Below are positions 3,197 through 32,749 of a stretch of DNA of 56,838 bases, one piece after another. The translations under genes were made by a program, and so were the position numbers. The stretch lies in IMG/VR virus record IMGVR_UViG_3300037193_001909, positions 1 to 56,838 of that record; one strand, written 5' to 3'. The stretch comes from a virus. Below the pieces are notes generated by a model. The model did not search any database, had not been told where the DNA came from, and saw only the letters and a program-made list of their open reading frames with translations. The stretch's first letter is position 1, and each line of letters opens with the position of its first letter.

Positions 3197-3643
3197 ATGA
3201 GCGGCCGCGTTCACATCATCGGCGAGACCAAGGGCAAGCAACCGGTCGCCGATTACAACGAAATCAACGTCCTGGAGCTGGAAAGCGCCAAGAGGGCGAA
3301 GATGGAGTTCTGGATCGCCAAGAAAATCGGCGAGAAGCTGGCCGAGGTGTACCCGAAGCGCCAGTGGGAGGTCATGGTCGACCTCGACGGCCAGATGCTC
3401 ATCGTGAAATGCCCGTCGCTTTCGCTGACCCACGGGTACCACATCGAAATGCGGCTGCGAAACATCAACGAGCTGCAGGAGCGCGCGATCCGTGGCGGCG
3501 GCGAAATTCTCGAGCGGCACAACCAGACCCGCGGCCGCGTGCGCGACATCGCCGTTTTCGATCATTTGCCGACGAATCTGCGCGGCGACGTGATCGCTCC
3601 TGACGCCAAGGGCGGCAATCCGCTCAAGATCATTCACCACTGA
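3197..3643 (+). CDS. hypothetical protein, 148 aa, terminase-portal interval
   Basis: Not recognised. A soluble, charged protein with a helical region (ELESAKRAKMEFWIAKKIGE) followed by a beta-like central part. No clear SD precedes ATG 3197. Its stop TGA overlaps the portal ATG (TGATG at 3641-3645), which ties its translation to the portal. It is probably a structural or assembly protein by position only. Confidence 0.75.
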   Translation: MSGRVHIIGETKGKQPVADYNEINVLELESAKRAKMEFWIAKKIGEKLAEVYPKRQWEVMVDLDGQMLIVKCPSLSLTHGYHIEMRLRNINELQERAIRGGGEILERHNQTRGRVRDIAVFDHLPTNLRGDVIAPDAKGGNPLKIIHH

Positions 3644-5853
3644 TGCCGGAAACGCTCACAGCCGACGGCGGGTACTCCCGCACCGCAGCCGACTTGCCGC
3701 CAGGGGAGACTCCGGCGGACAGCGCCGTGCTGGGCGCGGAAACAGAGGAGCAGGACGGCGGCTTCACGGATGAGTGGATCCTCGACAAGACGCGCGCGAT
3801 CTACACGACCTCGACCGACTACCGCGACACGAACATCACGAAGCAGTGGGAGCGGAACCTGTCCCACTTCCGCGGCGAGCACGCGCCGGGTACGCGCTAC
3901 AAGGCCTCCGACTGGCGCCGATCGCGCACCTTCCGGCCGAAGACCCGTGCCAACGTCAAGGCGCAGGAGTCCGCGTTCACGAGCGCCGCGTTCTCGACGA
4001 TCTCCATCATCGAGACGAAGGCGACGAATCCGGCCGATCCGCAGCAGGTGGCCGGCGCCGCGGTCGCCAAGGAGCTGATGCATCATCGGCTCAAGAACAC
4101 GATCCCCTGGTTCCTCTCGGCGGTCGGCGCGTTCCAGGACACGAAGAACTACGGCATCTGCGCAAGCCAGGTCTACTGGGATTACCAGACCGCCTCCGAG
4201 ATCAAGCCGGCGATGAACGAGGACGGAAGTCCGGTCGTCGAGATCGACGAAGCCACTGGCGAGCAAATCCCGATGGGTGAGGAGATCAAGAAGGTCCTCG
4301 CCGACAAGCCGTGCATCGACGTCTTCGAGCCCGAGAATCTGCGCTTCGACCCGATGGCCGACTGGCGCGACCCGGCCGGCACGAGCCCGTACCTCATCCG
4401 CCTCTGGCCGATGTACGCGGGCGACGTGCTCGAGCGCATGGAGTCGAGCGACGAGAAGAAGCGCTGGCGCAAGTACAACCTGGCAGAGATCCTGGGCACG
4501 CGCAAGCAGTCCGCGGATCGCACGCGCCAGGCCCGCGAAGGCCGGCAGCGCGTCGACCCCACGATGGCGCAGGAGGGCGACGAATTCTCGGTCGTCTGGG
4601 CGCATTACAATATCGTGCGCGTGAAGGGCGTCGATTATATCTGGTGGACGCTCGGCACCGAACTCATCCTGACCGATCCCGTGCCGCTTCTCGAGGAGTG
4701 CCCGTGGCTCGCGCCTGGCGAACGGCCGATCGACATCGGCTACAGCTCGATCGAGGCTCACCGGAACTACCCGGCCGGCGACGTCGAGCAGATCGCGCCG
4801 CTCCAGGAGGAGATCAACGATCTCGCCAATCAGCGGCTCGACAACGTCAAGCTGGTGCTGAACAAACGCTACTTCGTGCGTCGCGGCTCGCAGACCGACC
4901 TCGAAGCGCTCATGCGCAACACGCCGGGTGGCGGCGTCATGGTCAACGACCCGGAGCGGGACATCAAGACCGTCGACACCAACGACGTCACGAGTTCCTC
5001 CTACCAAGAGCACGACCGCCTCGACACGGCGCTGGACGAACTCGTCGGCGGGTTCAGCCAGGGCTCGGTACTCAACAACCGCAAGCTCAACGAGACTGTG
5101 GGCGGCATGGATCGCATGGCCTCGGCCGGCGGCGCCGTGCAGGATTACAGCATCATCATCTTCATCGAGACCTGGTACCAGCCGGTCTTGCGGAAGCTCT
5201 GGAAGCTGATGTCGTATTACGAGAACGACGCCACGGTTTTCGCGCTGGTTGCTGAGAAGGCGAAACTTATGCCGCGCTTCGGGATCAGTGCCGTCAACGA
5301 CGCGCTGCTCACGCAGAATCTCGTCGTCGAAGTGAACATCGGCGTGGGCAACACGGATCCCGTCAACCGGGTGAACCGGCTCACGCAGGGTATTCAGCTG
5401 GCGGTGGGTCTGCCGGGTGTTCCGGAGCGCTTGAAGGCGCAGGAGATCGCCGACGACATCTTCGGTGCCCTCGGCTTCCGTGATTCCTCTCGGTATATCA
5501 TGAACGACGAGGAGTTCAAGCAGAAGCAGGCGAACACCCCGCCGGCACCGCCGCCGCCCGAGATCGCCGTCAAGATGCGCGAGCTCGACATCCGGCAAGA
5601 AGACAACAAGCTGCGTGACGAACGCGAGCGGGCGACGAACGCCGCGAAGATCGAACTCGAGTTCCAGAAGCTGCAGAACGCGATCGAGCAGCGCATGGAT
5701 CAGATGGCCGCGCAACTCGGCATCGCGCAGATGCAGAACAAGACCAAGCGCGATACCACCGCACTGCAGGAAGCCAACAAGGTCGCGGCGGCGAATCTGG
5801 AGGCGAGCAAGCCTCCGGAGGAGACGCCCGGCAAACCTCCGGAGAAAAAGTAA
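3643..5853 (+). CDS. portal (head-tail connector) protein
   Basis: Forms the dodecameric ring at the packaging vertex. The 736 residues fit the large portals of short-tailed phages. A central region reads QEEINDLANQRLDN, then a long helical segment and TDPVNRVNRLTQGIQLAV, familiar in portals. The C-terminal 150 residues are a long charged helix (RELDIRQEDNKLRDERERA), comparable to a portal barrel, and end in a Pro/Lys-rich tail. It is followed without a gap by the next gene (TAA then ATG). Confidence 0.9.
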   Translation: MPETLTADGGYSRTAADLPPGETPADSAVLGAETEEQDGGFTDEWILDKTRAIYTTSTDYRDTNITKQWERNLSHFRGEHAPGTRYKASDWRRSRTFRPKTRANVKAQESAFTSAAFSTISIIETKATNPADPQQVAGAAVAKELMHHRLKNTIPWFLSAVGAFQDTKNYGICASQVYWDYQTASEIKPAMNEDGSPVVEIDEATGEQIPMGEEIKKVLADKPCIDVFEPENLRFDPMADWRDPAGTSPYLIRLWPMYAGDVLERMESSDEKKRWRKYNLAEILGTRKQSADRTRQAREGRQRVDPTMAQEGDEFSVVWAHYNIVRVKGVDYIWWTLGTELILTDPVPLLEECPWLAPGERPIDIGYSSIEAHRNYPAGDVEQIAPLQEEINDLANQRLDNVKLVLNKRYFVRRGSQTDLEALMRNTPGGGVMVNDPERDIKTVDTNDVTSSSYQEHDRLDTALDELVGGFSQGSVLNNRKLNETVGGMDRMASAGGAVQDYSIIIFIETWYQPVLRKLWKLMSYYENDATVFALVAEKAKLMPRFGISAVNDALLTQNLVVEVNIGVGNTDPVNRVNRLTQGIQLAVGLPGVPERLKAQEIADDIFGALGFRDSSRYIMNDEEFKQKQANTPPAPPPPEIAVKMRELDIRQEDNKLRDERERATNAAKIELEFQKLQNAIEQRMDQMAAQLGIAQMQNKTKRDTTALQEANKVAAANLEASKPPEETPGKPPEKK

Positions 5854-6207
5854 ATGCCCAGAGACAGAGAATTGCGCATCGCGGCTGCGGCCGCGTTCGT
5901 GTCCGACAAGTCCGCGCCGCTGGTGAAGTACACCGGCCGTCGCGTCAACCAGACCGTGGGCTCTTCGAGCTCCGCAGCGACGGCGCTGCCGGCCGGAGCG
6001 AAGATCGTCGAGCTACGGCTCACCGACGCGATCTACCTTCGTTTCGGCGACACGAGCGTCGGCGTCGCGGCGGCCGATGTGAACAGCGATCTCGTCGTGG
6101 GCGGCGAGAAGCTCGTAGTGGTGCCGGACGGAGCCACGCACTTCCGCGCGATTCGCGTGGGTTCGGCTGACGTCGCGCTGCAGATCGCGGAGGTCGAGAC
6201 CGAATGA
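5854..6207 (+). CDS. hypothetical protein, 117 aa, first gene of the accessory stretch
   Basis: Not recognised. ATG 5854 follows the portal stop with no spacer; CCGGAG about 11 bases upstream may serve as SD. The protein is Ala/Ser-rich at the start (VGSSSSAATALPAGA). It then becomes beta-rich (KIVELRLTDAIYLRFGDTSV, ATHFRAIRVGSADVALQIAEVE), like small head-decoration or stopper domains. It overlaps the next gene through ATGA. Confidence 0.7.
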   Translation: MPRDRELRIAAAAAFVSDKSAPLVKYTGRRVNQTVGSSSSAATALPAGAKIVELRLTDAIYLRFGDTSVGVAAADVNSDLVVGGEKLVVVPDGATHFRAIRVGSADVALQIAEVETE

Positions 6208-7445
6208 GGCGAGTCTGGCCGAGCATCTGCGGTCTGATCCTCGCGCTGGCGGCCGGCTTCGCGCCGGCCGGGCCCATTCACCAGGTCGACAAGCCGCGCT
6301 ATTTCGCGGCGAGCGCCGGCGGCGGTCTTGTCGATGGTGGCTTGGTCACGATCTCGGGCTCGGGCTTCGACAGCAATGTGCCGGTCGCCAACCAGGAATG
6401 GCAGGGCGGGGTCGACGGCGTCATCGAGACTGCGAGCAACGGCGCGGCCTGGAACACGGTCTACGGCTCCGGCTGGACGCGTCCGGGCGATCACAACCAG
6501 GTCATCGACAACACTCACAGCCTCAACGGCACGAAGTCGTTGTCATCTGGGGCGCTAAACCAGTCCACGAACTGGCAGTTCGGCTCGAAGTTCGACACGG
6601 GCACGGGCGGCTTCACCACGGCGCTGATCCGCTTCTCGGTCTACATGACCCGGGTCGGCGGCCAGTCCTGGCAGCAGTTGAAGATGGTCCGCTTCGCCGG
6701 TGGCGACGGCACGACCGAGAGCGGCATCAGCGACGCGGACGTGCCCAACTGGTACGTGACTCGCTTCGGCGCGAACTCGATGTGGGCCATCAACGAAGGC
6801 ACCGCGGCAACGCCCGATCCCTTCACGAACACGATCTACATCAGCGACGCTGGGCACACCGTCGTCGGTCCATGGCTTGATTTCGATGGTTGGTACACGA
6901 TCACCGTCGCTGCGCTCCGGCCGACCTCCGCGGGCACCACGAACGGCGCGCTGTATTGGCAGTCGGTGCGAGAGTCGGATGGCGTCGTGGTCGCGCATGG
7001 GGCTGCGACCGGCCAGCGCATGTGGGATAGCGCGACGCATCCCCCGCGCTTCCTCGTGCTGCAGGGCTTTTTCCAAGACACGTGGACCAACGGCGCGCAG
7101 TGGTGGTACGACCGGGACATCTACTTCGCCTGGTCGAGCTCGGGCACCACGCTTCCGAAGTTCATCCTCCTGTGCAATGCCGCGACGTTCGCCACGGTCA
7201 CGAAGTGCACGCTGTGCCCGTGGGAGGGCACCTGGTCGGACACCTCGATCACGCAAGTACGCGTGAACAAGGGCCAGCACGCGAACCTCACCGATGACCT
7301 GTGGTGGTACGTGATGAGCGCGCCTGGCACTGCGATCAATTCCAACGGAATCGCCGCCAATTCGATATGGCCGATGCTGCTGCTCGGCTGGCGGCGCCGC
7401 CGAGCGGCGAATGACGACAGTTTCTACGAGAGGAGGGCCGCATGA
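6204..7445 (+). CDS. secreted protein, possible lectin-like (jelly-roll) fold
   Basis: The 413 residues begin with a signal peptide (MRRVWPSICGLILALAAGFAPAG). The mature part is rich in Trp, Gly and Thr and alternates polar strands (WYTITVAALRPTS, ALYWQSVRESDGVVV). This pattern resembles concanavalin-like or polysaccharide-lyase-like domains, though no catalytic motif is identified. The C-terminus has a short hydrophobic stretch and an arginine run (WPMLLLGWRRRR) before a polar tail, like the start of a C-terminal sorting signal. Secretion is unusual for a gene between portal and capsid. Confidence 0.7.
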   Translation: MRRVWPSICGLILALAAGFAPAGPIHQVDKPRYFAASAGGGLVDGGLVTISGSGFDSNVPVANQEWQGGVDGVIETASNGAAWNTVYGSGWTRPGDHNQVIDNTHSLNGTKSLSSGALNQSTNWQFGSKFDTGTGGFTTALIRFSVYMTRVGGQSWQQLKMVRFAGGDGTTESGISDADVPNWYVTRFGANSMWAINEGTAATPDPFTNTIYISDAGHTVVGPWLDFDGWYTITVAALRPTSAGTTNGALYWQSVRESDGVVVAHGAATGQRMWDSATHPPRFLVLQGFFQDTWTNGAQWWYDRDIYFAWSSSGTTLPKFILLCNAATFATVTKCTLCPWEGTWSDTSITQVRVNKGQHANLTDDLWWYVMSAPGTAINSNGIAANSIWPMLLLGWRRRRAANDDSFYERRAA

Positions 7446-8086
7446 GTCTTTTCCGGAAGCTGAAATTCGGAGCTCTCTTTGCCGTTCTCGGCGCGTTCGT
7501 CGGCGTTGTCTCGAGTCCTCCGGTCGTCACGACAGTCGTCGTGGCGTCGGCCATCGTCACGCAAGACGCGCACGCGGCCAACGAGATTGGCTATTGGAAC
7601 AACGGCGCGGGCGCTCAGACCTCGGCGCTGTTCCCGGACGAGTACAAGGCCGTCGTCACGGCCGCGAATGCTTACACGGCGACAACCGGCGACACCATTA
7701 CGGCCGTCCGCATCGGACAATCGACCGCCGCCGCGCGCGTCATCGGTGTGGCGCTCTATGAATACGACGCAGGCACCAATCGCGCCACGGGGCCTGCGCT
7801 TCAGACTACTACGATCAGCACGACGGGGGCAGGCACTTTCGAGCGCACTGGGCTCACTTGGACGCTGACGAACGGCCTCGACTACGTGCTGGTTGCAGGC
7901 GACCCGGATAGCGTCGTCAATCTCACCGCGGACACGCTGACCGACGGCACGAGCATCGATGACAGCGGCGATGCGACATTCCCGACGTGGGGGCATACGG
8001 CCTACCAGGCATTGCAAATTGAGCTTGCAGGCGATGTGACGAATAGCGGAGGCGGCGGGCTACTGCTGCGCAGACGGAGGAATTGA
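7442..8086 (+). CDS. secreted hypothetical protein with GGGG-LLL-RRRR C-terminus
   Basis: The 214 residues start at ATG 7442 (ATGA overlap; GAGG upstream). The N-terminal 45 residues are a long signal or anchor (FGALFAVLGAFVGVV, then a second hydrophobic run), with possible cleavage after AHAA. The body is beta-rich and Thr-rich (TAVRIGQSTAAARVIGVALYEY, LDYVLVAGDPDSVV). It ends in GGGGLLLRRRRN, a miniature of tripartite glycine-hydrophobic-arginine sorting tails. Function is unknown. Confidence 0.7.
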   Translation: MSLFRKLKFGALFAVLGAFVGVVSSPPVVTTVVVASAIVTQDAHAANEIGYWNNGAGAQTSALFPDEYKAVVTAANAYTATTGDTITAVRIGQSTAAARVIGVALYEYDAGTNRATGPALQTTTISTTGAGTFERTGLTWTLTNGLDYVLVAGDPDSVVNLTADTLTDGTSIDDSGDATFPTWGHTAYQALQIELAGDVTNSGGGGLLLRRRRN

Positions 8087-8088
8087 CC

Positions 8089-9459
8089 ATGAAGAAGCTA
8101 CTGATTTCGTTGGCCCTGACTTTGGGCTTGGTGTCGCCGGCGCTGGCGGAAGTCTGGCAGGCGCGCTACGGCGTCGCCGAGACCTTCAACTTCAAGCTCT
8201 ACAACGCGGACGGTACGCTCGACGTCGACGAGGCGGACGGAGGCACCGAGGTTTCCCTGTCCTGCAACGAAGGTGCCGAGACCACGGCCACTAATGACTT
8301 CGCGGACGAGGGTACGTTCTATTCGATTGCGCTCACCGCATCCGAGATGCAGTGCGAGCGCATTGCGGTCGTCATCGCGGCAACCACGACCGAGGTCTTC
8401 TTCATCCAGACCTTCGGCAATGCGTCGGCGCTGACGCCGAGTATGGCGACGAACATGGGCGCCTCCGACTTCCAGGCAGGGGCCATAGATGCCTCCGCAA
8501 TCGCCGCGGACGCGATCGGCGCGAGCGAGCTGGCATCGAACGCTATCGGCGCTGCGGAGATTGCGGACGGTGCGATCGACGGCGCGACATTCTCCTGCCC
8601 CGTGTCGGCCGGTACGATGGCTGCACTGGGGATCATCGATTGCGGTACCGCGCAGGCGGCGACCTCGACCACGCTGCAACTGCGCAGTGCTGCGGCCTTC
8701 GCAGACGATGAAATCATCGGGGCCACCTGCCTCATCACCGGCGGATCTGCCGGTGTTGGCCAGTCGCGAGCCATCACGGACTACGTTTCTTCGACGGACA
8801 CGGCGACGGTCGCGACTTGGACGACGACCCCGACGGGTACCATCACCTACACCTGCTTCGGTACGTCTTCGGGCGGCGGCTCGGTCAGCATCGCGGCGGG
8901 CGGCATCACGAGCGCGAGCTTCGCGGCCGGCGCCATTGACGCGTCCGCCATCGCCACGGACGCCATCGGCGCGGCGGAGGTCGCGGCGAGCGCAATCGGG
9001 GCCAGCGAAATTGCAGACGGCGGCATTTCGGCAACGGAAATCGCCACGGACGCCATCGATGCCGACGCTATCGCCGCAAGTGCGGTAGGCGCCAGCGAAA
9101 TTGCAACTGACGCCATCGGTGCTGCGGAGATCGCAAGCGCCGCCATCGCTGCCGACGAGATCGCCTCCGACGCTATCGGCGCCGCAGAGATTGCAACCGA
9201 CGCCATCGGTGCTGCGGAGATCGCAAGCGCGGCCATCGCGGCGGATGAGATCGCAACCGACGCCATCGGCGCAGCGGAGGTCGCGGCGAGCGCGATCGGC
9301 GCGAGCGAGATCGCCACCGACGCCATCGATGCGGACGCCATCGCGACCGACGCCATCGGCACGGCGGAGACGGCGATTATCGACGTGAACGTGGAGCAGA
9401 TGAACGGTGTGACGGTGCTCGGCGCCGGCACCGAAGCCGACCCCTGGAACGGAGAGTAA
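8089..9459 (+). CDS. secreted pentad-repeat protein (fibre-like)
   Basis: ATG 8089 is chosen over TTG 8083 because GGAGG at 8076-8080 lies 8 bases away. The 456 residues have a clear signal peptide (KKLLISLALTLGLVSPALA). An N-terminal domain follows (about 20-120). A short repeat block (about 129-166), an intervening Cys-containing domain and a long repeat block (about 279-425) complete it. Repeats have five-residue periodicity with Ile at the centre (DAIGA-AEIAT-DAIGA-AEIAS). This is like pentapeptide-type beta-helices and the DGAVTTAKIAD repeats of tail fibres. It may be a surface-exposed appendage. Confidence 0.75.
   Translation: MKKLLISLALTLGLVSPALAEVWQARYGVAETFNFKLYNADGTLDVDEADGGTEVSLSCNEGAETTATNDFADEGTFYSIALTASEMQCERIAVVIAATTTEVFFIQTFGNASALTPSMATNMGASDFQAGAIDASAIAADAIGASELASNAIGAAEIADGAIDGATFSCPVSAGTMAALGIIDCGTAQAATSTTLQLRSAAAFADDEIIGATCLITGGSAGVGQSRAITDYVSSTDTATVATWTTTPTGTITYTCFGTSSGGGSVSIAAGGITSASFAAGAIDASAIATDAIGAAEVAASAIGASEIADGGISATEIATDAIDADAIAASAVGASEIATDAIGAAEIASAAIAADEIASDAIGAAEIATDAIGAAEIASAAIAADEIATDAIGAAEVAASAIGASEIATDAIDADAIATDAIGTAETAIIDVNVEQMNGVTVLGAGTEADPWNGE
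8473..8588 (+). repeat. pentad repeat block 1 (coding)
   Basis: Encodes roughly eight five-residue units of the type (D/S)-A-I-x-A / x-E-(I/L)-A-x, ending in EIADGAIDGA. The DNA copies have diverged at third positions, so selection on the protein pattern is suggested. Confidence 0.75.
8923..9363 (+). repeat. pentad repeat block 2 (coding)
   Basis: About 29 consecutive five-residue units built from GCCATCGGC-type codons. Several neighbouring units are almost identical in DNA (for example GACGCCATCGGTGCTGCGGA at about 9110 and 9200), which implies recent duplication within the array. Confidence 0.8.
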
Positions 9460-9460
9460 G

Positions 9461-9904
9461 GTGGGTTTCGGGCCGGGATTCGGCCAAGGTTTCGGCCCGG
9501 GCTTCGCACGAGCGGAGTCCGGGTCCGATCCCACCCCCGACCAGTTCACGTTCGTTGACCAGACGGACGTGCCGCTGTCGACGGTCGTCGTCTCGAACGA
9601 ACTCGGGCCGACGGCATTCGACACGCCTGCGGCCATCAGTGTCGTTGGCGGCGAGTACAGCCTCGACGGCGGGGCCTGGACGAGTGCCCCGGGCACTATC
9701 AACCCCGGGCAGATGGTGCGCGTGCGGCATACGTCGAGTGCATCGAACAGCACGGCCACGAACACCGTCTTGACTATCGACTCAGTTTCTGACACGTTTA
9801 CCAGCACTACGCTGGCAGCGCAGGGGCCGATCACCTCGGCAAGCGGTCGCAAACGCGACTCGCGCCGCAGAGGTTGGCTCGCTCGCTGGATGAACCGCGG
9901 GTAG
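9461..9904 (+). CDS. Gly/Phe-rich N-terminus plus bacterial Ig-like domain protein
   Basis: GTG 9461 begins right after the upstream stop, with GGAG 6 bases before. The 147 residues open with GFGPGFGQGFGPGF. A single beta-domain follows (about 22-125). Its pattern DPTPDQFTFVDQTDV, PAAISVVGGEYSLDG and TLTIDSVSDTFTSTT matches a domain repeated in many bacterial surface proteins. The C-terminus is Arg-rich (RKRDSRRRGW). No signal peptide is visible. It may be a decoration or adhesion domain. Confidence 0.65.
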   Translation: MGFGPGFGQGFGPGFARAESGSDPTPDQFTFVDQTDVPLSTVVVSNELGPTAFDTPAAISVVGGEYSLDGGAWTSAPGTINPGQMVRVRHTSSASNSTATNTVLTIDSVSDTFTSTTLAAQGPITSASGRKRDSRRRGWLARWMNRG

Positions 9905-9922
9905 CACAGGAGACCAGGAGAC

Positions 9923-10633
9923 GTGAGGAGAGCACCACCGGAGTACCCGGTCGTCCGCAGCGAGGAGGAGACACTCGAGGCGGTCCTTCAGGGCAAGAGC
10001 ATTGCCCGTTTCGGCGACGGCGAATTCAATCACGTCCGAGGCGGGAAGAACGTCTCCCAGATCGCGGATCCGAAGCTCACCACCGAGCTCACCGCGGTCC
10101 TCTGCGAACCGCAGAAACGGCTCATCGTCGGCATCCCGACGCTCGATGAGCGCAATCCGAAGTACAAGAACTGGCTGAAATACTCGGCCGGATACGCGTG
10201 CCACCTCAACGCGCGCATGACGTACTACTCATCGTTCATCTCCCGGCCCGACAACGCGCCGTGGATCAACACGGAAGAATTCTTCAATAAAATTGAAGGT
10301 TTGTGGAAGGGCGAGTACGTGACCCTGATTGCCAACGGCGAGCGATCACTCAAGCCGCAGTTCCTGCACGACACGGGCGCGAAGGACGTGTTCTTCGTGC
10401 AGTGCACCTACCGCGATTCGTACGCGCAGATCGATGAGCTCGAGCAGCGAGCGCTGCAGCAGGGCGCCGAGCGCGTGCTTCTGTGCTGCGGTCCGACGGC
10501 CACCGCGCTCGCCGCGCGCCTCGCAAAGCGCGGGCTCCACGCCATCGATCTCGGCCACGTCGGTCTTCTGTGGAGACCGTACCTCAAGGGCCGGCATTTA
10601 CTACAGGAGAACCAGGATGAAAGAACACCGTAA
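9923..10633 (+). CDS. GT-D-type glycosyltransferase (DUF1792 family)
   Basis: Predicted to transfer a sugar from a nucleotide sugar. The 236 residues carry the family signature near the start, SIARFGDGEF, in which the DGE replaces the usual DxD. A late CGPTATALAARLAKRG stretch and IDLGHVGLLW near the C-terminus also fit. GTG 9923 has AGGAG only 2 bases away but CAGGAGA 9 bases away. It is the first gene of a run of glycan-modifying enzymes. Its substrate could be virion proteins or host glycans; the sequence does not decide. Confidence 0.75.
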   Translation: MRRAPPEYPVVRSEEETLEAVLQGKSIARFGDGEFNHVRGGKNVSQIADPKLTTELTAVLCEPQKRLIVGIPTLDERNPKYKNWLKYSAGYACHLNARMTYYSSFISRPDNAPWINTEEFFNKIEGLWKGEYVTLIANGERSLKPQFLHDTGAKDVFFVQCTYRDSYAQIDELEQRALQQGAERVLLCCGPTATALAARLAKRGLHAIDLGHVGLLWRPYLKGRHLLQENQDERTP

Positions 10634-11225
10634 CCTTTGGTGGCCTGACTTCGAGCACAACCCGGAGGAGCTGTTCAAGTACATGCTCCGCCGCGTGACC
10701 GATGTCGACGTCGCCATGCAGCACGTCCGCACGAAGGGCGTCGCCGTGCAAGCCGGCGGATACATCGGCCTCTGGCCGCGCCGGCTGGCGAAGTTTTTCG
10801 AGCTCGTCTACACGTTCGAGCCGGTGCCAGAGCTTTTCGAATGCCTGAAACTGAACACGGATCGGTACTGCCCCGGGGTGATCGCGACGAACGCGCTGCT
10901 CGGCCCTTCAAGCGGCACGGCGCAGTACGTGATGAAGTCGGGCGGTCGCACGACGGCCATCAATGGCGGCGACCGGCATGCGGGGCAGTACTGCATCGAT
11001 GAACTCGACCTCGTGCGCTGCGACGCGATCTACCTCGACGTCGAGCGGTACGAACTCGAGGTGCTGAAAGGCGCCGAAGAGACGATCCGGAAGTTCAAGC
11101 CGGTCGTGACGCTGGAGGTCAAGGAGGACACGCAGCAGGAGTTCACCGACTTCATGCGAGCGCGCGGCTACTCGCTTGCGGCGAAAGTGCATGCCGACGC
11201 CGTCTACGTGCCGATCGCCAAATGA
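10617..11225 (+). CDS. FkbM-family SAM-dependent methyltransferase
   Basis: Predicted O-methyltransferase acting on a sugar. ATG 10617 (inside the previous gene, CAGGAGA upstream) gives 202 residues. Typical FkbM features are AGGYIGLWPRRLAKFF as a degenerate SAM motif I, YTFEPVPELFECLKLN after it, and YLDVERYELEVLKGAEE at about 140. The opening glycine loop has AGGYIG in place of the canonical DVGANIG. Neighbouring glycosyltransferases support a sugar substrate. Confidence 0.75.
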   Translation: MKEHRNLWWPDFEHNPEELFKYMLRRVTDVDVAMQHVRTKGVAVQAGGYIGLWPRRLAKFFELVYTFEPVPELFECLKLNTDRYCPGVIATNALLGPSSGTAQYVMKSGGRTTAINGGDRHAGQYCIDELDLVRCDAIYLDVERYELEVLKGAEETIRKFKPVVTLEVKEDTQQEFTDFMRARGYSLAAKVHADAVYVPIAK

Positions 11226-11641
11226 TTCACGTCGAACCGCAACACTTCGAATTCCTGGCCCTGCAGCGCGGCGGCATCTCCGATCTCGCGCACGACTTCG
11301 TTCCGTGGCTGAACGCCTACGAGGCGTCGCTGCAGGCGGATCTGCGATCGATGCTGCCGGCGCTGCCGGCCGAACCGCGCTGGATGCTCGACGTCGGCGG
11401 CGGGTTATCCGGGATCAGCGCCAAGCTGAACGAGCATTACGGCGGCATCAACGTCGCCGTGCTCGATGGCAAGGCGTGCGCGCCGCGCATCCGCAAGCAC
11501 GGCGTGCCGTTCAACAACGCCACGATGACCTCGCAGTTCCTCCGGCTGAACGGCGTGCAGAATCAGATCTTCTTCGACGCGGTTCGATTCGACCGCGACG
11601 CGTTCCGTGCCGGGCCGGGCCACGCTACGACCTCGTCGTGA
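11222..11641 (+). CDS. class I SAM methyltransferase, N-terminal part of a split gene
   Basis: 139 residues from ATG 11222 (ATGA overlap). It contains SAM motif I, LDVGGGLSGI (about 59-68), and acidic strand 2 (VAVLDGK). After ...FRAGP the reading continues as GHATTSS and stops at 11641. The next frame (-1) continues sensibly as RYDLVVSTQAWCFH. The gene therefore looks broken by one base near 11615-11625, within GCCGGGCCGGGCCAC. Confidence 0.6.
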   Translation: MIHVEPQHFEFLALQRGGISDLAHDFVPWLNAYEASLQADLRSMLPALPAEPRWMLDVGGGLSGISAKLNEHYGGINVAVLDGKACAPRIRKHGVPFNNATMTSQFLRLNGVQNQIFFDAVRFDRDAFRAGPGHATTSS

Positions 11642-11844
11642 GTACACAAGCCTGGTGCTTCCATTTCGAGCCGGAGGAGTACCTCTCGGCCATCGAAGAC
11701 CAGGTGCGCCCCGGCACCGTGATCATCCTCGACGTGCGCCGGCACAAGACCGAGTGGTTAGAGACGCTCGACGATGTGTTCGGCGAGCACCGGATCCTGC
11801 TCAATCGCGACAAGTGGTGGAGGTGCGCGTGGACTATCGCCTGA
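11638..11844 (+). CDS. class I methyltransferase, C-terminal part of the split gene
   Basis: 68 residues from GTG 11638, in a GTGA overlap with the N-terminal part. The sequence STQAWCFHFEPEEYLSAIED followed by GTVIILDVRRHKTEWLE looks like the second half of a Rossmann methyltransferase. The preceding in-frame codons encode RYDLVV, the expected strand 4, which a GTG 11638 start would leave out. Either two coupled half-proteins are made, or a frameshift joins them, or the sequence has an indel. Confidence 0.5.
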   Translation: MSTQAWCFHFEPEEYLSAIEDQVRPGTVIILDVRRHKTEWLETLDDVFGEHRILLNRDKWWRCAWTIA

Positions 11845-12476
11845 AGGCGTGCGCCATCGTCGCGGGCGGTTGGAGTGCGAGGCCGCACGAGATAGGTTGC
11901 TTGAACATGATGGCGAAGAGCCGCTTCATGGACCGCATCTGTGTGAACGACGCGTTCCGGTACGTAAGCGACATTTCATGCGTGGTCACGATGGACCGCA
12001 AGTGGCTCGAGAATCGGTACGACGAAGTACACGGCAAAGGCCTCCAGATTTTCTACCGCAGTTGCACGCTCAAGGGTCCTATCGCCGGGCGACTCGACCG
12101 GTACAAGCACGTCGGGTTCCACAACAATAACTCACCGGGGCCGATGATGGGGCAGACAGTGCCCTTCACGCTCAACGGAAACAACAGCGGTACGTGCGCG
12201 ATGAACCTCGCGTTCATTCGCGGATACCACTCCGTCTATCTCTTCGGTTTCGACATGCAAAAAGGGCCGAACGGCGAGAATCATTTCTACCCCGACTACG
12301 AGTGGAATAAGAACGCCACCAAGCCCGACACTTTGGTTCGGTGGGCGGGCAGTTTCCGAGAGGTGGCCGACCAGTTCACCCAGCGAGACATCAAAGTGTT
12401 CAACGTCAGCAATCGTTCGCTGATTCGCGATTTTCCCGTCATCTCGTTCAATGAATTCACCAGGAGATTTTCGTGA
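11829..12476 (+). CDS. MptE/DUF115-like putative glycosyltransferase (phage 'norphogenetic' type)
   Basis: The start is GTG 11829 with GGAGG 5 bases upstream, giving 215 residues. The pattern is an N-terminal AIVAGGWSAR loop, then RICVNDAFRYVSDISCVVTMD, then a late NSGTCAMNLAFIRGYHSVYLFGFDMQ followed by H and DY residues. It matches phage proteins related to MptE/DUF115 and sialyltransferase-like folds. In such families the GxS-type loop binds a nucleotide. It overlaps the next gene by GTGA inside the glycan cassette. Confidence 0.6.
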   Translation: MDYRLKACAIVAGGWSARPHEIGCLNMMAKSRFMDRICVNDAFRYVSDISCVVTMDRKWLENRYDEVHGKGLQIFYRSCTLKGPIAGRLDRYKHVGFHNNNSPGPMMGQTVPFTLNGNNSGTCAMNLAFIRGYHSVYLFGFDMQKGPNGENHFYPDYEWNKNATKPDTLVRWAGSFREVADQFTQRDIKVFNVSNRSLIRDFPVISFNEFTRRFS

Positions 12477-13192
12477 ACGACATCCATCTGATTTACCCGT
12501 ACTACTGCAACCGCAACATGCTGCGCCATCACGTGGCATGTTGGAACAAGTTCCCTCACTGGATGCACCAGTACCTGTCGATCCACATCGTTGACGACGG
12601 CTCGCCCGAGCAGGAGCGACCGGACGAGGAGCTGCGCGAGCTCAAGGTGCCTAACCACTTGGCGCGCGTCAAGGTGGACATTCCTTGGCATCAGCACGGC
12701 GCACGCAACCTCGCGGCCTCGCTCATGAAGCACGACGACGACTGGATGCTGATGACTGACATGGACATCGGCGTGCCGGAGTCCGTCCTCTGCATGCTCC
12801 TGCAGATCCGTCTCGACCGGCGCGTGCATTACACGTTCGATCGCCGGTACCTCGATGGACGCCCGAACAAGCCGCACTGCAACAGTTTCCTGGTCACCAA
12901 GGGCAACTACTGGAAGGCCGGGGGGTACGACGAGGACTTCTGCGGCGCCTACGGCGGCGATGGCCTCTTCCTGCGCGCACTCGCCAAGGTGGCGCCCGAG
13001 CACCGCCTCTCCGAGGCGCTTATCGGGTACGACGGCACCGTGGTCGACGCGAACACCCGCGGCCTGGGCCGCAAGGACACCGAGATGCATCACGAGTACA
13101 TCCGTCGCCGAGAGGCAAAGCGCGCCGCCAACGGCGGGCAGGTGCCGCGCCCGGAGCGCCCCGTGCGGTTTGCGTGGGAGCAGGTGTGGTAA
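12473..13192 (+). CDS. GT2-like (GT-A fold) glycosyltransferase
   Basis: 239 residues from GTG 12473 (GTGA). The N-terminal IHLIYPYYCNRNML and HIVDDGSPEQ are GT2-like nucleotide-sugar elements. MLMTDMDIGVPE (about 97) holds the DxD metal site. GNYWKAGGYDEDFCGAYGGDG gives the acceptor-loop GGYDE and the later GGDG. A basic tail follows. Predicted to be cytosolic, since there is no membrane segment. Confidence 0.75.
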   Translation: MNDIHLIYPYYCNRNMLRHHVACWNKFPHWMHQYLSIHIVDDGSPEQERPDEELRELKVPNHLARVKVDIPWHQHGARNLAASLMKHDDDWMLMTDMDIGVPESVLCMLLQIRLDRRVHYTFDRRYLDGRPNKPHCNSFLVTKGNYWKAGGYDEDFCGAYGGDGLFLRALAKVAPEHRLSEALIGYDGTVVDANTRGLGRKDTEMHHEYIRRREAKRAANGGQVPRPERPVRFAWEQVW

Positions 13193-14010
13193 AGGTCGTC
13201 GCCTTCAAGTGGCAGCGCCCGGGATACCGCAGCACCTTCGATGCGGCCAAGGTCAACACGCATTTTCGCACCTGGTGGCGCCACTCGACCGTCCCGTTCG
13301 AGGCCGTGTGCATCACCGACGACCCGGCGGGGCTCGATTCGGCTATTACCGCCGTGCCGATATGGGATTGTCCGGTTCCGAACTATGGCGGCGGGAACGA
13401 GCCGAATTGTTTCCGACGTTTGAAGCTCTTCGATGCTGACTTCCCCTGGATCTGGACCGATCTCGATGGTTTCGTCTGCGGGAACGTTGACCACATCCTC
13501 TCGGACCCGGCCGAATTTCGTATCTGGCGTCCTGACGGCGGCCGTTCGAAGTGCAATGGCAGCCTCGTCTCGCACAAGCCGGGCGCGCGGAGGCACTTCT
13601 GGACGAGTTTCGACCCATCGCAGATCGGGTCGGTCGCGGAATTTCGCGAGAAAACCCAGCATTTGGGCTCCGATCAGGCCTGGATTGCGTCGCACCTCAC
13701 AGAAAATGACCAGTTTTTCGGCCAATCTGACGGCGTGTACGCGTTCAGAAGCCTGCGAAACCAGCGGCGCGAGCGCGAATTGGCGAAATCGCGGCGCGTG
13801 CCGCTACGGCCGACGCTCCCGAGCCGGGTGATTACCCGGGACAGCGCGCGCCGGTCACGAATTTCGGCCCGCATGCTCGAGCGCAGGGACGAACGTATCC
13901 AGACTGCGCTGCCCGCGAACGCCGCGCTGGTGTATTTCCCCGGCCAGTTCCACCCCTGGGACCGGGAAATCCAGAAAGTCTACCCGTGGATCGAGGAGCA
14001 CTACCGGTGA
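13186..14010 (+). CDS. putative GT-A glycosyltransferase with DLD motif
   Basis: GTG 13186 is used because GGGAG lies just upstream and the gene then overlaps its neighbour by 7 bases; an earlier in-frame GTG exists at 13174. The 274 residues include RRLKLFDADFPWIWTDLDGFVCGNVDHIL (about 80-105), with DLD as likely metal-binding motif. HLGSDQAWIASHL, typical of late acceptor-site helices, follows. Residues 190-235 are Arg-rich and the end has FHPWDREIQKVYPWI. It closes the glycan cassette. Confidence 0.6.
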   Translation: MVKVVAFKWQRPGYRSTFDAAKVNTHFRTWWRHSTVPFEAVCITDDPAGLDSAITAVPIWDCPVPNYGGGNEPNCFRRLKLFDADFPWIWTDLDGFVCGNVDHILSDPAEFRIWRPDGGRSKCNGSLVSHKPGARRHFWTSFDPSQIGSVAEFREKTQHLGSDQAWIASHLTENDQFFGQSDGVYAFRSLRNQRRERELAKSRRVPLRPTLPSRVITRDSARRSRISARMLERRDERIQTALPANAALVYFPGQFHPWDREIQKVYPWIEEHYR

Positions 14011-14303
14011 CACAAGACGTTGAATTTGCTGACGATCGGCAGCGTTTGCTGTTTGCACGCGCGCAGCTTGGCGAGCAGGTGCGCGACTTTCTGGTGTCGC
14101 CGGTGGGCCGGTATCTGCACGAACGCGCCAAGGAAGATCTGGAGCAGGTGAAAATTCAACTACTCCACACGAATACCGACAGCTGGTTCGGCCGCCGCAA
14201 AGCGCGTCGGCTGCGAGAAACGGCCGCTCATTGCGAGCGGTTCATGAAATACTGCGTCGACGCGATCACGGACGGGGAAGTTGCCTTCCGCGAGCTCGAA
14301 TAG
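14007..14303 (+). CDS. hypothetical helical protein upstream of scaffold, 98 aa
   Basis: GTG 14007 starts in a GTGA overlap. The protein is almost entirely helical and charged (RDFLVSPVGRYLHERAKEDLEQVK), with no membrane segment. Similar small helical proteins lie between portal and scaffold in other short-tailed phages. Its role is unknown. Confidence 0.7.
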   Translation: MTQDVEFADDRQRLLFARAQLGEQVRDFLVSPVGRYLHERAKEDLEQVKIQLLHTNTDSWFGRRKARRLRETAAHCERFMKYCVDAITDGEVAFRELE

Positions 14304-14326: not shown

Positions 14327-15400
14327 ATGCCGAAGAACAAAAATGCTGCGCCGGACGACGAAAACGTGACGCAGACCAACGACGAGACCGTCGAAACCAA
14401 GAAAACTGCCCCGGAAAATTCACGGCAGGCCGCGATCGACGCGATTGCCGAGAAAGTGTCCGCCCGGCACCGCGACGAACAGCAGAAAGCGATCGACGAG
14501 GGCCTGGCGGCGAAGACGGACGAGCAGGACCCGGAGGAAGGCGCGGATGCGCCGGCCGCCGAGGCCGAAGAGCAAGAAGAGGCTGGCGCCGCGCCGGAGG
14601 TCGAAGACCCCCTGAGCGGGTTCGCGGTCATCAAGGACGGCAAGCCCGTGGTCAAGCTCAAGGTCGACGGGCAGGAGCGGTTCATTCCGCTGGAACAGGC
14701 CCGTGCCGTGCTGTCCAAGAACGAAGCCGCTGACGCGCGCCTGCGAGAGGCGGCGCGGCAGCGCCAGGAAATCGAAGCGCGCGAGCGCGCCCTCCAAGCC
14801 CGCGAGGCCGAGGTGAACGCTCGAGCGCAGAAGTTGGGAACCCAGCCACCCGATACGGACGCTGGCGACCCGGACCTCAAAACTGAGGCCAAGAAGCTAG
14901 CCAACAAGCTGCTGACGGGCACCGAGGATGAGGTGGCGGAGACCCTCGTGACGGTTCTGACCCCCCGGCAAGCCAAGGCCCCGGTTGTGGATCCGAAGGC
15001 GATCGCGAAGGAAGTCCGCCAAGAGCTGACGGCAGAGCAGGCCCAGGAGAAACTCGTCGAGTCCTTGAAGAAGTTCGAGGAAGACTTCGAGGACATCGCC
15101 AAGGATCCTGTGCTGTACGCAGCAGCCGATGTGATTTCGGACCAAGTCAAGGCGGAGAACCCGACCTGGACGACGGACCAGATCCTGTCGGAAACCGGCA
15201 AACGGACCCGTGAGCGTTTCGGCCAGCCCAGGCCCGCCGTGACGACGACCGCGACCGTGAATCGCCAGGAACGCAAGAACAACTTGCGGCCGCTTCCGCA
15301 AGCGCGCGTAGCCGCGCAGGCGAAGCCGACCGAAGAGCGCCCGATGACGCCCGCGGAAGTGGTGCGTGAACAGCGGAGGGCTCGCGGTCAGGCCGTCTAA
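14327..15400 (+). CDS. scaffolding protein
   Basis: Predicted internal scaffold for procapsid assembly, immediately upstream of the capsid gene. ATG 14327 has GGAGG 6 bases upstream. The 357 residues are highly charged: an acidic disordered N-terminus to about 100, a short beta element (FAVIKDGKPVVKLKVDGQ), then a coiled coil (EAARQRQEIEARERALQARE). A helical part and a basic C-terminal tail (VVREQRRARGQAV) follow; scaffolds bind coat protein through such basic ends. Confidence 0.8.
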   Translation: MPKNKNAAPDDENVTQTNDETVETKKTAPENSRQAAIDAIAEKVSARHRDEQQKAIDEGLAAKTDEQDPEEGADAPAAEAEEQEEAGAAPEVEDPLSGFAVIKDGKPVVKLKVDGQERFIPLEQARAVLSKNEAADARLREAARQRQEIEARERALQAREAEVNARAQKLGTQPPDTDAGDPDLKTEAKKLANKLLTGTEDEVAETLVTVLTPRQAKAPVVDPKAIAKEVRQELTAEQAQEKLVESLKKFEEDFEDIAKDPVLYAAADVISDQVKAENPTWTTDQILSETGKRTRERFGQPRPAVTTTATVNRQERKNNLRPLPQARVAAQAKPTEERPMTPAEVVREQRRARGQAV

Positions 15401-15449: not shown

Positions 15450-16373
15450 ATGCAGCTGTGGGGAACCAACTCCCTCGGTGGCTTCATGTACAGCGACAAC
15501 CTGAGCAAAAAGCTCCGGACGGCGCTGCAGCCCGCGGTTCGTTTCCGCCAGTTCGCGGACGCCAAGGAGGCCTTCGGCCTCGGCGTCGGCGACACCTTCA
15601 ACTGGAACATCTATTCGGATGTTGCCGATGAGGGCGGAGAACTGCAGGAAACCGAGACGATGCCGGAAACCGGCTTCACGATCGACCAGAACTCGCTGAC
15701 CATCACCGAGTACGGCAACAGCGTGCCGTTCACGAAGAAGCTCGACGATCTGTCCGAACAGCCGGTCACCGAGATCATCCACAAGGTGCTCAAGAACGAT
15801 GCACGCAAGACGCTCGACACGGCTGCGTACAATCAGTTCAACCTGAGCCCGCTGCGCGTCACCGCGAGTTCCGCGACGGCAATCACCGTTGCGACCGGCG
15901 GCACGCCGGCGCTCGCGCACCAGGCCGAGCTCAACCACGATCACGTCAAGCTGATCGCAGACGAGATGGCCGAGCGCGAGATCCCGACGTACGACGGCGT
16001 GAACTACATGGCCGTCTTCCGTCCGCGCGCGCTGCGCGCGCTGAAGGATGACCTCGAGGCGGTCAACCAGTACACCAGCGAAGGCTGGCACGTGATCATG
16101 AACGGCGAGAAGGGTCGTGCGGAAGGCATTCGCTTCTGCGAGCAGACCAACATCGCCGCGGCGGACTTCACCTTCTCGGATCGTGGCTTCTTCTTCGGTA
16201 GCGATACCGTTTGCGAAGCCTTCGCGATCCCCGAGGAAATCCGCGGCAAGATCCCGACCGACTACGGCCGCAGCCGCGGCGTGGCCTGGTACGCCGAGCT
16301 CGGTTACGGCCTCGTGCACGACAGCGCCGATCAAGCCCGCATTCTCGTGTGGGACGGCCTGGAAGCGACCTAA
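15450..16373 (+). CDS. major capsid protein (N4-gp56 family, HK97 fold)
   Basis: 307 residues from ATG 15450, with AAGGGG about 9 bases upstream in an A/C-rich leader (15401-15449). The order fits N4-gp56-type coats: an N-terminal arm, GDTFNWNIYSDV, ETETMPETGF, the ITEYGNSVPFTKKLDDL strand pair, the spine helix EIIHKVLKNDARKTLDT, and a C-terminal GRSRGVAWYAELGYGLVHDSA. Position after the scaffold supports it. Confidence 0.9.
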   Translation: MQLWGTNSLGGFMYSDNLSKKLRTALQPAVRFRQFADAKEAFGLGVGDTFNWNIYSDVADEGGELQETETMPETGFTIDQNSLTITEYGNSVPFTKKLDDLSEQPVTEIIHKVLKNDARKTLDTAAYNQFNLSPLRVTASSATAITVATGGTPALAHQAELNHDHVKLIADEMAEREIPTYDGVNYMAVFRPRALRALKDDLEAVNQYTSEGWHVIMNGEKGRAEGIRFCEQTNIAAADFTFSDRGFFFGSDTVCEAFAIPEEIRGKIPTDYGRSRGVAWYAELGYGLVHDSADQARILVWDGLEAT

Positions 16374-16387: not shown

Positions 16388-16849
16388 ATGGGACGTAACA
16401 ACAGCGTGAGTTCCGGCTACGACAAGCCGGAGCGTCTGCACCACGAGCTGGGTCTGATCGACTTCGGCGCCGGCGCCGACGTCACGAAACTGATCCGCGT
16501 GCCGGCCGCCAAGTTCGGCGGCACGGGCATGCGCGGTCGCGTTCGCGGCGTGTTGATTTCGCAGGTCTCCGAAGACTTCGCGGGCAGCACTCTCGACGCC
16601 GGTGTCCAGGTCGGTGACGGCTCGGATGCCGACAAGTATTTCGACTCCGGTCGAGTACTCGACGAGACCGTGGATGTCGCCGACGGCGAGACGATTTTCC
16701 TCAACAACGACGACTCCGAGGGTGGGGCGGGCGAAGACGCGGAAGACATCGAGGCGGGTCGTTCGACCGTCACGGTGACTTGCCAAGTCGCGACCGGCTC
16801 GCCGACGGGGCAGGCCCATGTGACCGTCGTCATCGACTGGTACACGTAA
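16388..16849 (+). CDS. hypothetical head protein, possible decoration protein
   Basis: 153 residues, 14 bases after the capsid gene. Beta-rich, acidic and Gly-rich with many Val/Thr strands (VRGVLISQVSEDF, VTVTCQVATGSPTG, HVTVVIDWY). No signal peptide. Small acidic beta proteins next to the capsid gene are often decoration or cement proteins; that role is inferred from position. Confidence 0.75.
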   Translation: MGRNNSVSSGYDKPERLHHELGLIDFGAGADVTKLIRVPAAKFGGTGMRGRVRGVLISQVSEDFAGSTLDAGVQVGDGSDADKYFDSGRVLDETVDVADGETIFLNNDDSEGGAGEDAEDIEAGRSTVTVTCQVATGSPTGQAHVTVVIDWYT

Positions 16850-22461: not shown

Positions 22462-22965
22462 ATGTTCAAGACCCCCTGGAACCCCGGCAAGAAGGCGGCC
22501 TACGCCGTCACGGCGCTGCTCATCCTGCTAGCTGTGGGCTTCTGTACGACCGCCCGCAGCGCCGAGCCGCCACACGTTCAAATGGCTGTCGGCAGCACGG
22601 TTGTCCGCGGCACCACCCCCGCGGTGAGCGTCAACGTGGTCTATCCGGGGCGGGTGGGCGACGCGAGTTACGAATTCGGCGCCACGTTCATTGGCGAGAG
22701 CTCGTTCCGTGACGTCCTTCAACGCAACAACTTCGCTCTTCATGCTGGGATCGTCGATGGCTTCGGCCGGTTCGACGTTGGCCTGGGCGTGGCGTATCTG
22801 CAGAACACCGACGAGTACAATGGCAGCAATTTGAATTTTCAGCTGCTTTTGGGCTATCGGTTCAAGAGCTTGCCGTTGACGGTGCGTCTACAGCATTTCA
22901 GCAACGGCAGCACGAAAATGCCGAACAGGGGCCGGGATATGCTCCTATTTTTCTACCGATTCTGA
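22462..22965 (+). CDS. PagL-like outer-membrane protein (putative lipid A 3-O-deacylase)
   Basis: AAAGGAG lies 5 bases before the ATG. The 167 residues start with a signal peptide (hydrophobic 14-28, cleavage likely after ARSA). The rest alternates like a small beta-barrel and ends in aromatic LLFFYRF, an outer-membrane C-terminal signature. RLQHFSNGS gives H145-x-S147-N148, as in the PagL active site, and D159 sits 12 residues after the serine, where PagL has Glu. PagL removes the 3-linked acyl chain of lipid A. Alternatively it could be a barrel without activity. Confidence 0.6.
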   Translation: MFKTPWNPGKKAAYAVTALLILLAVGFCTTARSAEPPHVQMAVGSTVVRGTTPAVSVNVVYPGRVGDASYEFGATFIGESSFRDVLQRNNFALHAGIVDGFGRFDVGLGVAYLQNTDEYNGSNLNFQLLLGYRFKSLPLTVRLQHFSNGSTKMPNRGRDMLLFFYRF

Positions 22966-32400: not shown

Positions 32401-32749
32401 CCAGTCGCTCGGCTTCGTGCCGCTCGACGTGGCGACGCAGTTCGACCAGAACCGTGCGGTGAAGGAGGCCGAGCAGCACATCACCGACCGGCGCGCGCAG
32501 CTCATGAACATGCTCGCGCTCACCGCGCAGAACGACGATCCGCAAGGCCGCGCCGAGGTGATGCAGCAGATCCTGAAATTCAACCAAAAGAACCCGGGCG
32601 TCCTGATCGACTTCGACGCGATCTGGGCGAGCGCGAAGGCGCGCGCGCGGTACAGCATAGAGGCCGTCAACGGTGTGCGCGTCGAGCCCGGCCTGCGATA
32701 TCTGCACGAGAAACTGCGATTCACTGAACAGGAGAACGAAAATGAATGA
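26411..32749 (+). CDS. giant polyvalent internal virion protein with InPase, HExxxH and PLxRFG regions
   Basis: 2112 residues, the largest gene. The N-terminus has Gly/Ala hydrophobic segments near 180-205 (AALGTGILGGVAAGPVGFVAG). An inorganic-pyrophosphatase-like domain of phage polyvalent proteins starts about 697 (NYKMGHTKLYGL, then DHYGYVKRTKGADGDHVDVF). Zincin-like HEIVAHKGL begins at 1070. The PLxRFG signature PYFPLARFGDYW is at about 1425-1436. A hydrophobic helix (MTFLFAGTSGLPMFWLAAFV) lies near 1830-1850. Such multi-domain proteins are thought to be injected with phage DNA and to act against host defences. Confidence 0.75.
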   Translation: MGAYDDFGFEQDGQSQPYHPVYDPNDPALAGLTDEEKRAASQPAGNAYDDFVFEEPSAEAPAEEPGLLDQLIAGYHDWRATERTKDALDELGALNRLGKDDNGPLRKWLEKAAPRAAAESLSDAAEHRAKAAQTPLSPETQAFLDENSDKTLWEAFKAAPAKIILELGARSGPASGAALGTGILGGVAAGPVGFVAGTGIGSARIEYVNSVVDALRSRGVDVTNAEALGRAVSNEQLMAEVNKEATIRAATVGGVDALSSFIGGKNLVPGLKSKLAKELANLGVQAPTQAALGAGGEALGQAASGQELDTRSIAAEAAGEFVTAPVEVATAVASGVRGPKTQPGGSPIDDAAKAPPQLDAVEEARQKAKAETAARGGDALDQEVAGALAAAEISAHKRAAYDTTVRQVQEAARTLQVEQDYALGTAQSEEDSARAHVQAEAAARYERGLPAPAPEPLEVVKTTPAVRLDPGGAPSVLNARTTRPSTVTKREPANILGSRTENPVFDVAEREQAAAKDVDFDRARIQRDQQVAEEAPTKEPLRASIGEFATLQERRAAKSVVPAKPVSPTPVVEDVGTNVGTSAQVPTNLPKALPAPREAFTEVAPDGTPRKVSEAEVEQRQADAGKPVRQTLTLGQRRLENAAPIREAAPRTLAERRAAQEAAAKTQVQEIESAAAEAASSPKNELAEPTEGQRSAGNYKMGHTKLYGLGISIETPKGGLRTFKLPNGTTGSRRMRDHYGYVKRTKGADGDHVDVFLGDRPDSQKVFVIDQVKQEDGSFDEHKAMLGYADRESAVHAYTRNYQSGWKVGPVTEMTVEEFKRWSQEGDTKSPLKPDEIRVRKTLAARRRPPQGDDGRLAEDNQPPKTFAERVKEKLDVREPDFAKTMQEKMHFGKSEQQLEKEIDELGREYWNGEIPQGARYEEFKRKQDALQDALWRLRQARRNAERGGNLRDGDKTASDRSIATTPKEKSNAPTGWQSTEKGTDAPRRLTAAKVKAALKPLFDEIGHEGHEVLDSPADMPEEVLRRMTTQHGARRLMNARGLYDRKTGTVYIFADNHTSTEKAVKTAVHEIVAHKGLKQLLGKKWGELMLDVYKNATDQKWIADYAKQHGLDPATNDSVKAILADEYIAYTAERDSGVDPTMLEKVIAAVRAVLRKLGATLEWTDSEIRVLLQKSKSQLASQHAREVSDDSGRLADGEVDPPRQEASHPSARLFKMAVTAEDQANYSPGFVRSRLNAIKDGGVDAIPKVLALVPRRNLPDFISPMKMPSLRAYVRAAQRMDGRRSELLQGAEEVAQRWLDFVRKNKEEARILGELMHAATLAGTDPANAFQSQLKDGRRHSVEQRQADAQRRGQHAALKRHWDRLSPEAKAIYIDVREAYARHRDLVQLGLENRINQAEADGKTKQALINALREKFEAGRVTGPYFPLARFGDYWAVAKDKAGTVISFTRFERVSERKAWVAEMQKQGYKVDTGVKDSNAALTKRIDPGFVAKVAGMLDEIDSEMADEVWQTYLRALPEMSMRRHFIHRKGRLGFTADALRAFAHQQFHGAHQIAKLEHMPVMDSLVNQAELEAKKLEGTDEEIWAARLAQELGKRHEWARNPSSSLWATRLTALGFAFHLGLTPAAALVNLTQTPIVAFPTLAAKYNYLGSGTEILKAAASWAGSRGPLKQRLRGDELKAFEEAERIGLFDKTQAHDLAGLGEDGAMDFGSTRQRISNIISWLFHKTEQANREVTFLAAYRLARKKGLSHEDAILSGEDLTWDSHFDYSNANRPRALQHDAAKVMFLFRQYSLNMTYRLARDFKDSIKHESKQVQKEAQKRFAGILGMTFLFAGTSGLPMFWLAAFVLNHIFGDEDEPFDTEAAMRAHLFEMGGEGWSNAVMDGPVSAISGVDLSSRVGLNNLWWRDPPPGTEGAALGAHVLKEIAGPVVGIPIAMAEAVALKDEGHGDRALEKAAPKAVADSLKALRYAREGVANKRGDTLIPAEQISSKDLFVQSLGFVPLDVATQFDQNRAVKEAEQHITDRRAQLMNMLALTAQNDDPQGRAEVMQQILKFNQKNPGVLIDFDAIWASAKARARYSIEAVNGVRVEPGLRYLHEKLRFTEQENENE

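Follow-up and report, generated by a model that had tools for sequence, protein, structure and literature searches.

The 56.8-kb IMG/VR virus record IMGVR_UViG_3300037193_001909, analysed over its whole length of 56,838 nucleotides (the window), carries an insert (5854-14010) between the gene for an SU10-type portal protein and the head genes that follow. The right half of the insert (9923-14010) comprises six enzyme genes whose products probably glycosylate head or other virion proteins, and in the left half (5854-9904) are genes for five proteins that look virion-like or exported. All of these genes, and the head genes flanking them, are on the plus strand. The enzyme genes form one co-directional run in which each overlaps the next; the last overlaps a small head gene that precedes scaffold, and the run continues without a gap into this gene and scaffold. 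A preliminary description of the locus had counted seven overlapping frames. The frames are real and do overlap, but two of them make up one methyltransferase, leaving six genes, and starts were corrected for the last enzyme (13186), the fourth (D115, 11829), the second (FkbM, 10617) and an upstream repeat protein (8089).

Six enzyme genes

The first enzyme (9923-10633) is a GT-D glycosyltransferase of the DUF1792 type (PF08759, E 7.5e-24, 85.2 bits against a Pfam cut-off of 27; PDB 4PFX, E 1e-36 by profile). Its RFGDGE motif is intact, and R29, G31, D32, G33 and E34 of the conserved DGE motif are invariant among 24 sequences. It is followed by an FkbM-type methyltransferase (10617-11225; PF05050, 44.2 bits against a cut-off of 22.7; phrog_8156, E 8e-24) and by a class I methyltransferase in which a -1 frameshift breaks the reading (11222-11844). 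The fourth product (11829-12476) is an MptE/DUF115/CstII-like transferase, here called D115, which matches phrog_4603 (E 9e-22). Its AlphaFold2 (AF2) model (pLDDT 91.5) has as top PDB match the MptE-type HPPK 8sd5, with probability 1.00 but a TM score of only 0.51 and an E-value of 2.5e-3 that false matches also approach; profile matches to CstII and 5mu5 are weak, and D115 matches no Pfam family, PF01973 (MptE/DUF115) included.

The last two enzymes are glycosyltransferases with intact DxD motifs, which are kept throughout divergent alignments. The GT2 enzyme (12473-13192), which also retains a DDxS motif, falls below the Pfam cut-off as a single sequence (Glycos_transf_2, PF00535, 17.9 versus 23.3 bits), so its assignment to the GT2-type GT-A enzymes is made from a profile search against PDB (5e-7 to GmaR) and the invariant motifs. 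The other (13186-14010; phrog_1962) has no Pfam match and is therefore labelled GT8-like only; D92 and D94 are invariant, and its AF2 model (pLDDT 85.6) matches LgtC, GlyE and glycogenin in PDB with Foldseek probability 1.00. Alignments for the structure models were built from rows of the window and the IMG/VR loci only. With the exception of the broken methyltransferase, the enzymes have kept their catalytic motifs, and none contains a hydrophobic membrane segment (maximum 19-residue mean hydropathy 1.27).

The first piece of the broken methyltransferase spans 11222-11641 and the reading then continues in the -1 frame to 11844, the break lying near GGGCCGGGCC, at about 11613-11622. The preliminary description had taken the split as part of the architecture. 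Since the gene is one open reading frame (ORF) in the 22 other loci listed, the split here is a frameshift mutation or an assembly error in a broken gene. A programmed frameshift was considered and rejected because every other copy is a single ORF.

Recurrence beside head and packaging genes

IMG/VR was searched with alignments of the enzymes, not of head genes, which returned 64 loci. Single-sequence scans with the GT2 enzyme, the portal and the 6204 protein gave no matches, whereas alignments including sequences from Tetraselmis viridis virus S20 or the portals of relatives succeeded. Defining a cluster as at least three enzyme families gave 55 clusters, or 38 after near-identical ones were collapsed. 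Automatic profiles found 43 of the 55 to be no more than 3 kb from a gene for head or packaging, and by hand count about 35 of the 38 non-redundant clusters lie within this distance. The hand count added L051, L067 and L069 after PHROG checks, and L058 because its GT-D is shared with L053 and L056; outside it are L010/L057, L034, where the cassette runs off one end of the record and the terminase is at the other, and L066, a fragment. As a yardstick, sequence no more than 3 kb from a detected head gene makes up 30% of the window. On contigs over 25 kb, head or packaging genes adjoin roughly 19 of the 21 clusters (hand count). We attach no probability to these adjacency counts, because the clusters are interrelated.

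Relatives carrying the enzymes singly or far from head genes had been named beforehand as evidence that would count against a virion role. What the relatives carry are multi-gene cassettes, beside head or packaging genes in all but a few cases, of which L010/L057 is the exception discussed below. Four positions recur: the slot between portal and scaffold, the position after the major capsid protein (MCP), the slot between TerL and portal, and a site convergent to a T7-like TerL. One relative, L023, has its enzymes in the same portal-scaffold slot as the window and a GT-D that is 60% identical, and Tetraselmis viridis virus S20/SI1 has a homologous cassette between MCP and head-closure genes, with three enzymes at 31-37% identity. 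The cultured phage Psp6 has a relative of D115. Some cassettes hold further glycan genes, namely a UDP-sugar dehydrogenase (L027:13293-14081), PF02719 dehydratases (L012:790-1761 and L059:4570-5562) and a sulfotransferase (L068:9406-9966); this is the gene content typical of glycan loci. No description of a head-gene cassette of this kind was found in the literature searched.

Exchange between phage lineages

On the GT-D tree, phages with SU10-type portals and T7-like phages are intermixed; L032 groups with L028-L030 at supports of 100/96 and the window with L023 at 98/92. This mixture of lineages indicates that the cassette has passed between them and settled at differing head and packaging sites. 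From these sequences, the enzyme half appears to be a horizontally exchanged cassette that stays at the head or packaging genes of unrelated phages.

Predicted role in virion glycosylation

We consider virion glycosylation the probable function of the enzyme half because the enzymes are soluble and retain their motifs, their genes overlap in a run that leads into the head genes, and the association with head and packaging genes recurs. Recurrence in unrelated phages suggests that the particles are sugar-coated by their own phage. The preliminary description had proposed a phage-encoded pathway that glycosylates and methylates the phage's own virion or a displayed repeat protein; a cytosolic set of glycan and methylation genes among head genes is indeed present, while the link to the repeat protein fell away (see below).

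Several of the nearest solved relatives glycosylate proteins. For the GT-D these are the DUF1792/dGT1 enzymes, of which dGT1 glucosylates Fap1 (PMC5063993); for the GT8-like enzyme they are glycogenin, Skp1 galactosyltransferase and GlyE, which acts on PsrP (PMC12656782); and for the GT2 enzyme the relative is GmaR. D115 may share the MptE/CstII fold with Maf, a transferase that glycosylates flagellin and whose central domain (pfam01973) resembles CstII (PMC11339370). The cassette enzymes resemble cytosolic protein glycosyltransferases. If they act as predicted, the cassette would be expressed late together with the head genes, and the soluble enzymes would draw on host nucleotide sugars in the cytoplasm. 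A short glycan would be built and methylated there on at least one virion protein, which might be the capsid, the post-MCP protein or a connector. Addition before or during assembly would give the particle a lineage-specific sugar coat.

Several observations weigh against a virion role. Some of the nearest solved relatives are GT2 and GT8 enzymes that act in cell-surface polysaccharide synthesis, LgtC among them; one methyltransferase is broken in the window record; and the L010/L057 cassette, about 26 kb from the portal and near an integrase, is the one clear exception to the head-gene association. Adjacency is also favoured on short contigs because IMG/VR partly selects records by hallmark genes, although contigs over 25 kb show a like pattern. 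Finally, no candidate acceptor gene was shown to track the cassette independently of phylogeny. L023, which bears a cassette, has a 72% identical version of the post-MCP protein (16388-16849), probably a decoration protein; cassette-free relatives give no match to it or one under 39% identity. Because L023 is the closest relative on the capsid comparison as well, this protein is only a lead as acceptor; we dropped it as an established one, its correlation with the cassette being confounded by phylogeny.

Some of the same evidence bears on modification of the host surface, in which O-antigen or capsule precursors would be altered during infection, for example blocking superinfection or the rebinding of progeny. 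Surface polysaccharide loci also hold GT2, GT8 and GT-D enzymes, cellular relatives of the GT-D occur in bacterial genomes at 24-31% identity, and the cassette of L010/L057 has an integrase close by, as a lysogenic-conversion gene might, which gives at least one carrier with conversion-like placement. A search of cellular genome contigs for a prophage or host yielded these GT-Ds only, and no host was assigned. We nevertheless think this unlikely: the window cassette encodes no membrane protein, flippase or lipid-linked transferase, and nearly all clusters lie in or beside late head genes, which is late timing for exclusion. The membrane flippase and membrane-bound transferases of gtrABC-type O-antigen conversion have no counterpart among the cassette enzymes, all of which lack a hydrophobic segment.

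There are known systems in which phage glycosyltransferases modify DNA (PMC12619734, as background), and the cassette could in principle decorate modified bases of the phage genome. Homologs of thymidylate synthase/hydroxymethylase were found in none of 26 cassette-bearing records, many of them fragments, while positive controls were detected; Tet/JBP homologs were likewise found in none of the same records, a weaker result since that control stayed silent. The annotated genes of the window include no base-modifying enzyme, although much of its right arm is unannotated. We consider DNA hypermodification very unlikely.

A broader possibility, which we hold only tentatively, extends virion glycosylation beyond the window. 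The cassette may represent a widespread, modular and exchanged capsid-glycan system of uncultivated tailed phages that provides interchangeable, lineage-specific coats, sometimes methylated, uronic-acid-bearing or sulfated, akin to serotype-determining loci.

Proteins upstream of the enzymes

The left half begins with a small virion-like protein that has no signal peptide (5854-6207) and a 413-aa exported-looking protein with an N-terminal signal peptide and an LLLGWRRRR tail (6204-7445); searches for relatives of either found none. Next come a 214-aa exported-looking protein with a signal peptide and the C-terminus GGGGLLLRRRRN (7442-8086), for which no phage relative was found, and a signal-peptide protein with a fibre-like N-terminal domain and AIGAxEIAxDAI repeats (8089-9459), which has PHROG tail-fibre matches. 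The last (9461-9904) lacks a signal peptide and is assigned an Ig/IPT-like domain from a weak tail-fibre match, a weak match under a Synechococcus phage IPT/TIG protein, and L137:4102-6984. Signal-peptide-like starts are thus seen in three of the five proteins (the 6204, 7442 and 8089 products). The heuristic used to find such starts near cassettes overlooked known cases and serves as a hint only. The C-termini of the 6204 and 7442 products combine a short hydrophobic stretch with RRRR, resembling rudimentary sorting signals. In the tail region of the window, the 22462-22965 product is a fourth that looks exported, again with a start resembling a signal peptide, and exported-looking proteins with no Pfam match adjoin cassettes elsewhere (L032:8836-9588, L035:8832-9455 and L069:14406-14864).

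The preliminary description had treated the secreted and repeat proteins as part of the enzyme module and had tied the enzymes to the displayed repeat protein. Neither idea survived comparison with two relatives. At the same slot, L023 encodes a GT-D, a second GT-D, an FkbM enzyme, D115, a GT2 and a GT8-like enzyme, and none of the left-half proteins, which makes the two halves separable. Conversely, the homolog of the 8089 repeat protein in L111 (4778-6568; hidden Markov model match 1e-18), an exported protein related to phage fibre domains that has a signal peptide and shares a Cys pair (C59 and C89 in the window protein), has the terminase to its right, and the 22 kb of that locus examined showed no cassette enzyme nearby. 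The secreted block and the enzymes as a single module were therefore rejected. The best explanation is that the five upstream proteins are separate virion-like or exported cargo in the same variable slot.

The enzymes could instead be dedicated to the exported and repeat proteins encoded at 6204-9904, as in serine-rich repeat (SRR) adhesins, with subsequent display on the particle or cell. These proteins adjoin the enzymes and are encoded in the same direction, relatives of the GT-D and GT8-like enzymes modify exported repeat adhesins, and L032, L035 and L069 also have exported-looking proteins beside their cassettes. As a general rule, such dedication is contradicted by L023 and L111 together, and the upstream proteins other than the repeat protein have no relatives found, or only weak domain matches; we regard it as quite unlikely.

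Head-gene order and borders of the insert

The left border of the insert is the portal gene (3643-5853; PF23899, E 3e-32; phrog_1216). On the right, a conserved small gene (14007-14303), encoding about 112 aa and with tblastn homologs in 54 loci, precedes scaffold (14327-15400; homologs in L003, L004 and L007), the MCP gene (15450-16373; PF25209, 2e-7; phrog_1357, 3.5e-21) and the post-MCP gene. The small gene is directly 5' of scaffold in relatives, and the insert is therefore bounded by portal and this gene. The roughly 8 kb reported earlier between portal and scaffold proved correct (about 8.2 kb, with all frames present), as did placement in a head-gene slot, but the exact right neighbour is the small gene and not scaffold.

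Scaffold is visible in 63 portal relatives, and their median portal-to-scaffold gap is 436 bp; only the window (8183 bp) and L023/L087 (4763 bp), two names for one contig, exceed 2.5 kb, the next gap being 2436 bp. Vibrio phages 1.232.O and D279 and Escherichia phage PTXU04, whose portal (34-36%), scaffold (31-32%) and capsid (51-57%) are identical to those of the window at the levels given, have the order portal, one small gene, scaffold, capsid. Looked for at the same place in relatives, the gene block recurs as enzymes in L023 and not in these three phages, which have no insert.

The slot between portal and small gene is hypervariable, holding Gly/Pro-rich ORFs, HNH and pentapeptide proteins in L077, L078, L090, L098, L105, L125 and others, and this variety marks the site as permissive. 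Such variability, together with the broken enzyme in the window, would fit neutral or selfish cargo that plays no part in the virion. Catalytic motifs are conserved across divergent multi-gene copies, however, and other lineages, which hold the cassette at different sites, also have it beside head or packaging genes; we consider this explanation exceedingly improbable. Elsewhere in the window, a 2112-aa protein (26411-32749) has DarB-like and endolysin/minor-head PHROG matches.

Comparison with known systems

In tailed phages, virion glycosylation has been reported from experiments on a small number of mycobacteriophages (work cited in PMC11256854 and PMC12619734). Phage-encoded virion glycosylation is thus already known; the new element, by the literature searched, is a transferable multi-enzyme cassette beside head and packaging genes. 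If virion glycosylation is its function, a place-keeping cassette that moves among unrelated phages would make sugar-coated virions a common trait, and would offer a concrete, cloneable gene set with which to find the acceptor and the glycan and to learn what the sugar naturally does for the particle.

Like the window, mycobacteriophage Che8 encodes a cluster of soluble glycosyltransferases; capsid glycans have been reported for Che8 (Freeman et al. 2023, via PMC11256854 and PMC12619734). Che8 gp109 and the window GT2 enzyme match at superfamily level only (hmmsearch 17 bits, hhalign 95% probability). Unlike the cassette, gp108-110 are found at the extreme right of Che8, away from head genes, and include no homolog of the window GT-D, D115, FkbM or GT8-like enzymes. 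Chlorovirus PBCV-1 glycosylates its MCP with enzymes of its own, among them a methyltransferase, that work in the cytoplasm (PMC7826918). The combination of virus-encoded glycosyltransferases and methyltransferase, acting on the MCP in PBCV-1, is shared with the window, compared here by description only; PBCV-1 differs in being a eukaryotic algal virus with multidomain enzymes and an N-linked glycan.

The streptococcal Fap1 and PsrP systems share the GT-D and GT8 folds (dGT1/DUF1792 and GlyE) and glycosylate proteins sequentially in the cytosol. Their acceptors are cellular surface adhesins, and no SRR protein or Gtf1/2 pair was identified in the window. The record annotation of Tetraselmis viridis virus S20/SI1 gives no function for its cassette, which has another gene order and is set among unrelated HK97-type head genes; it nevertheless has homologous GT-D, GT2 and GT8-like enzymes with related FkbM and D115 proteins, again among the genes for the head.

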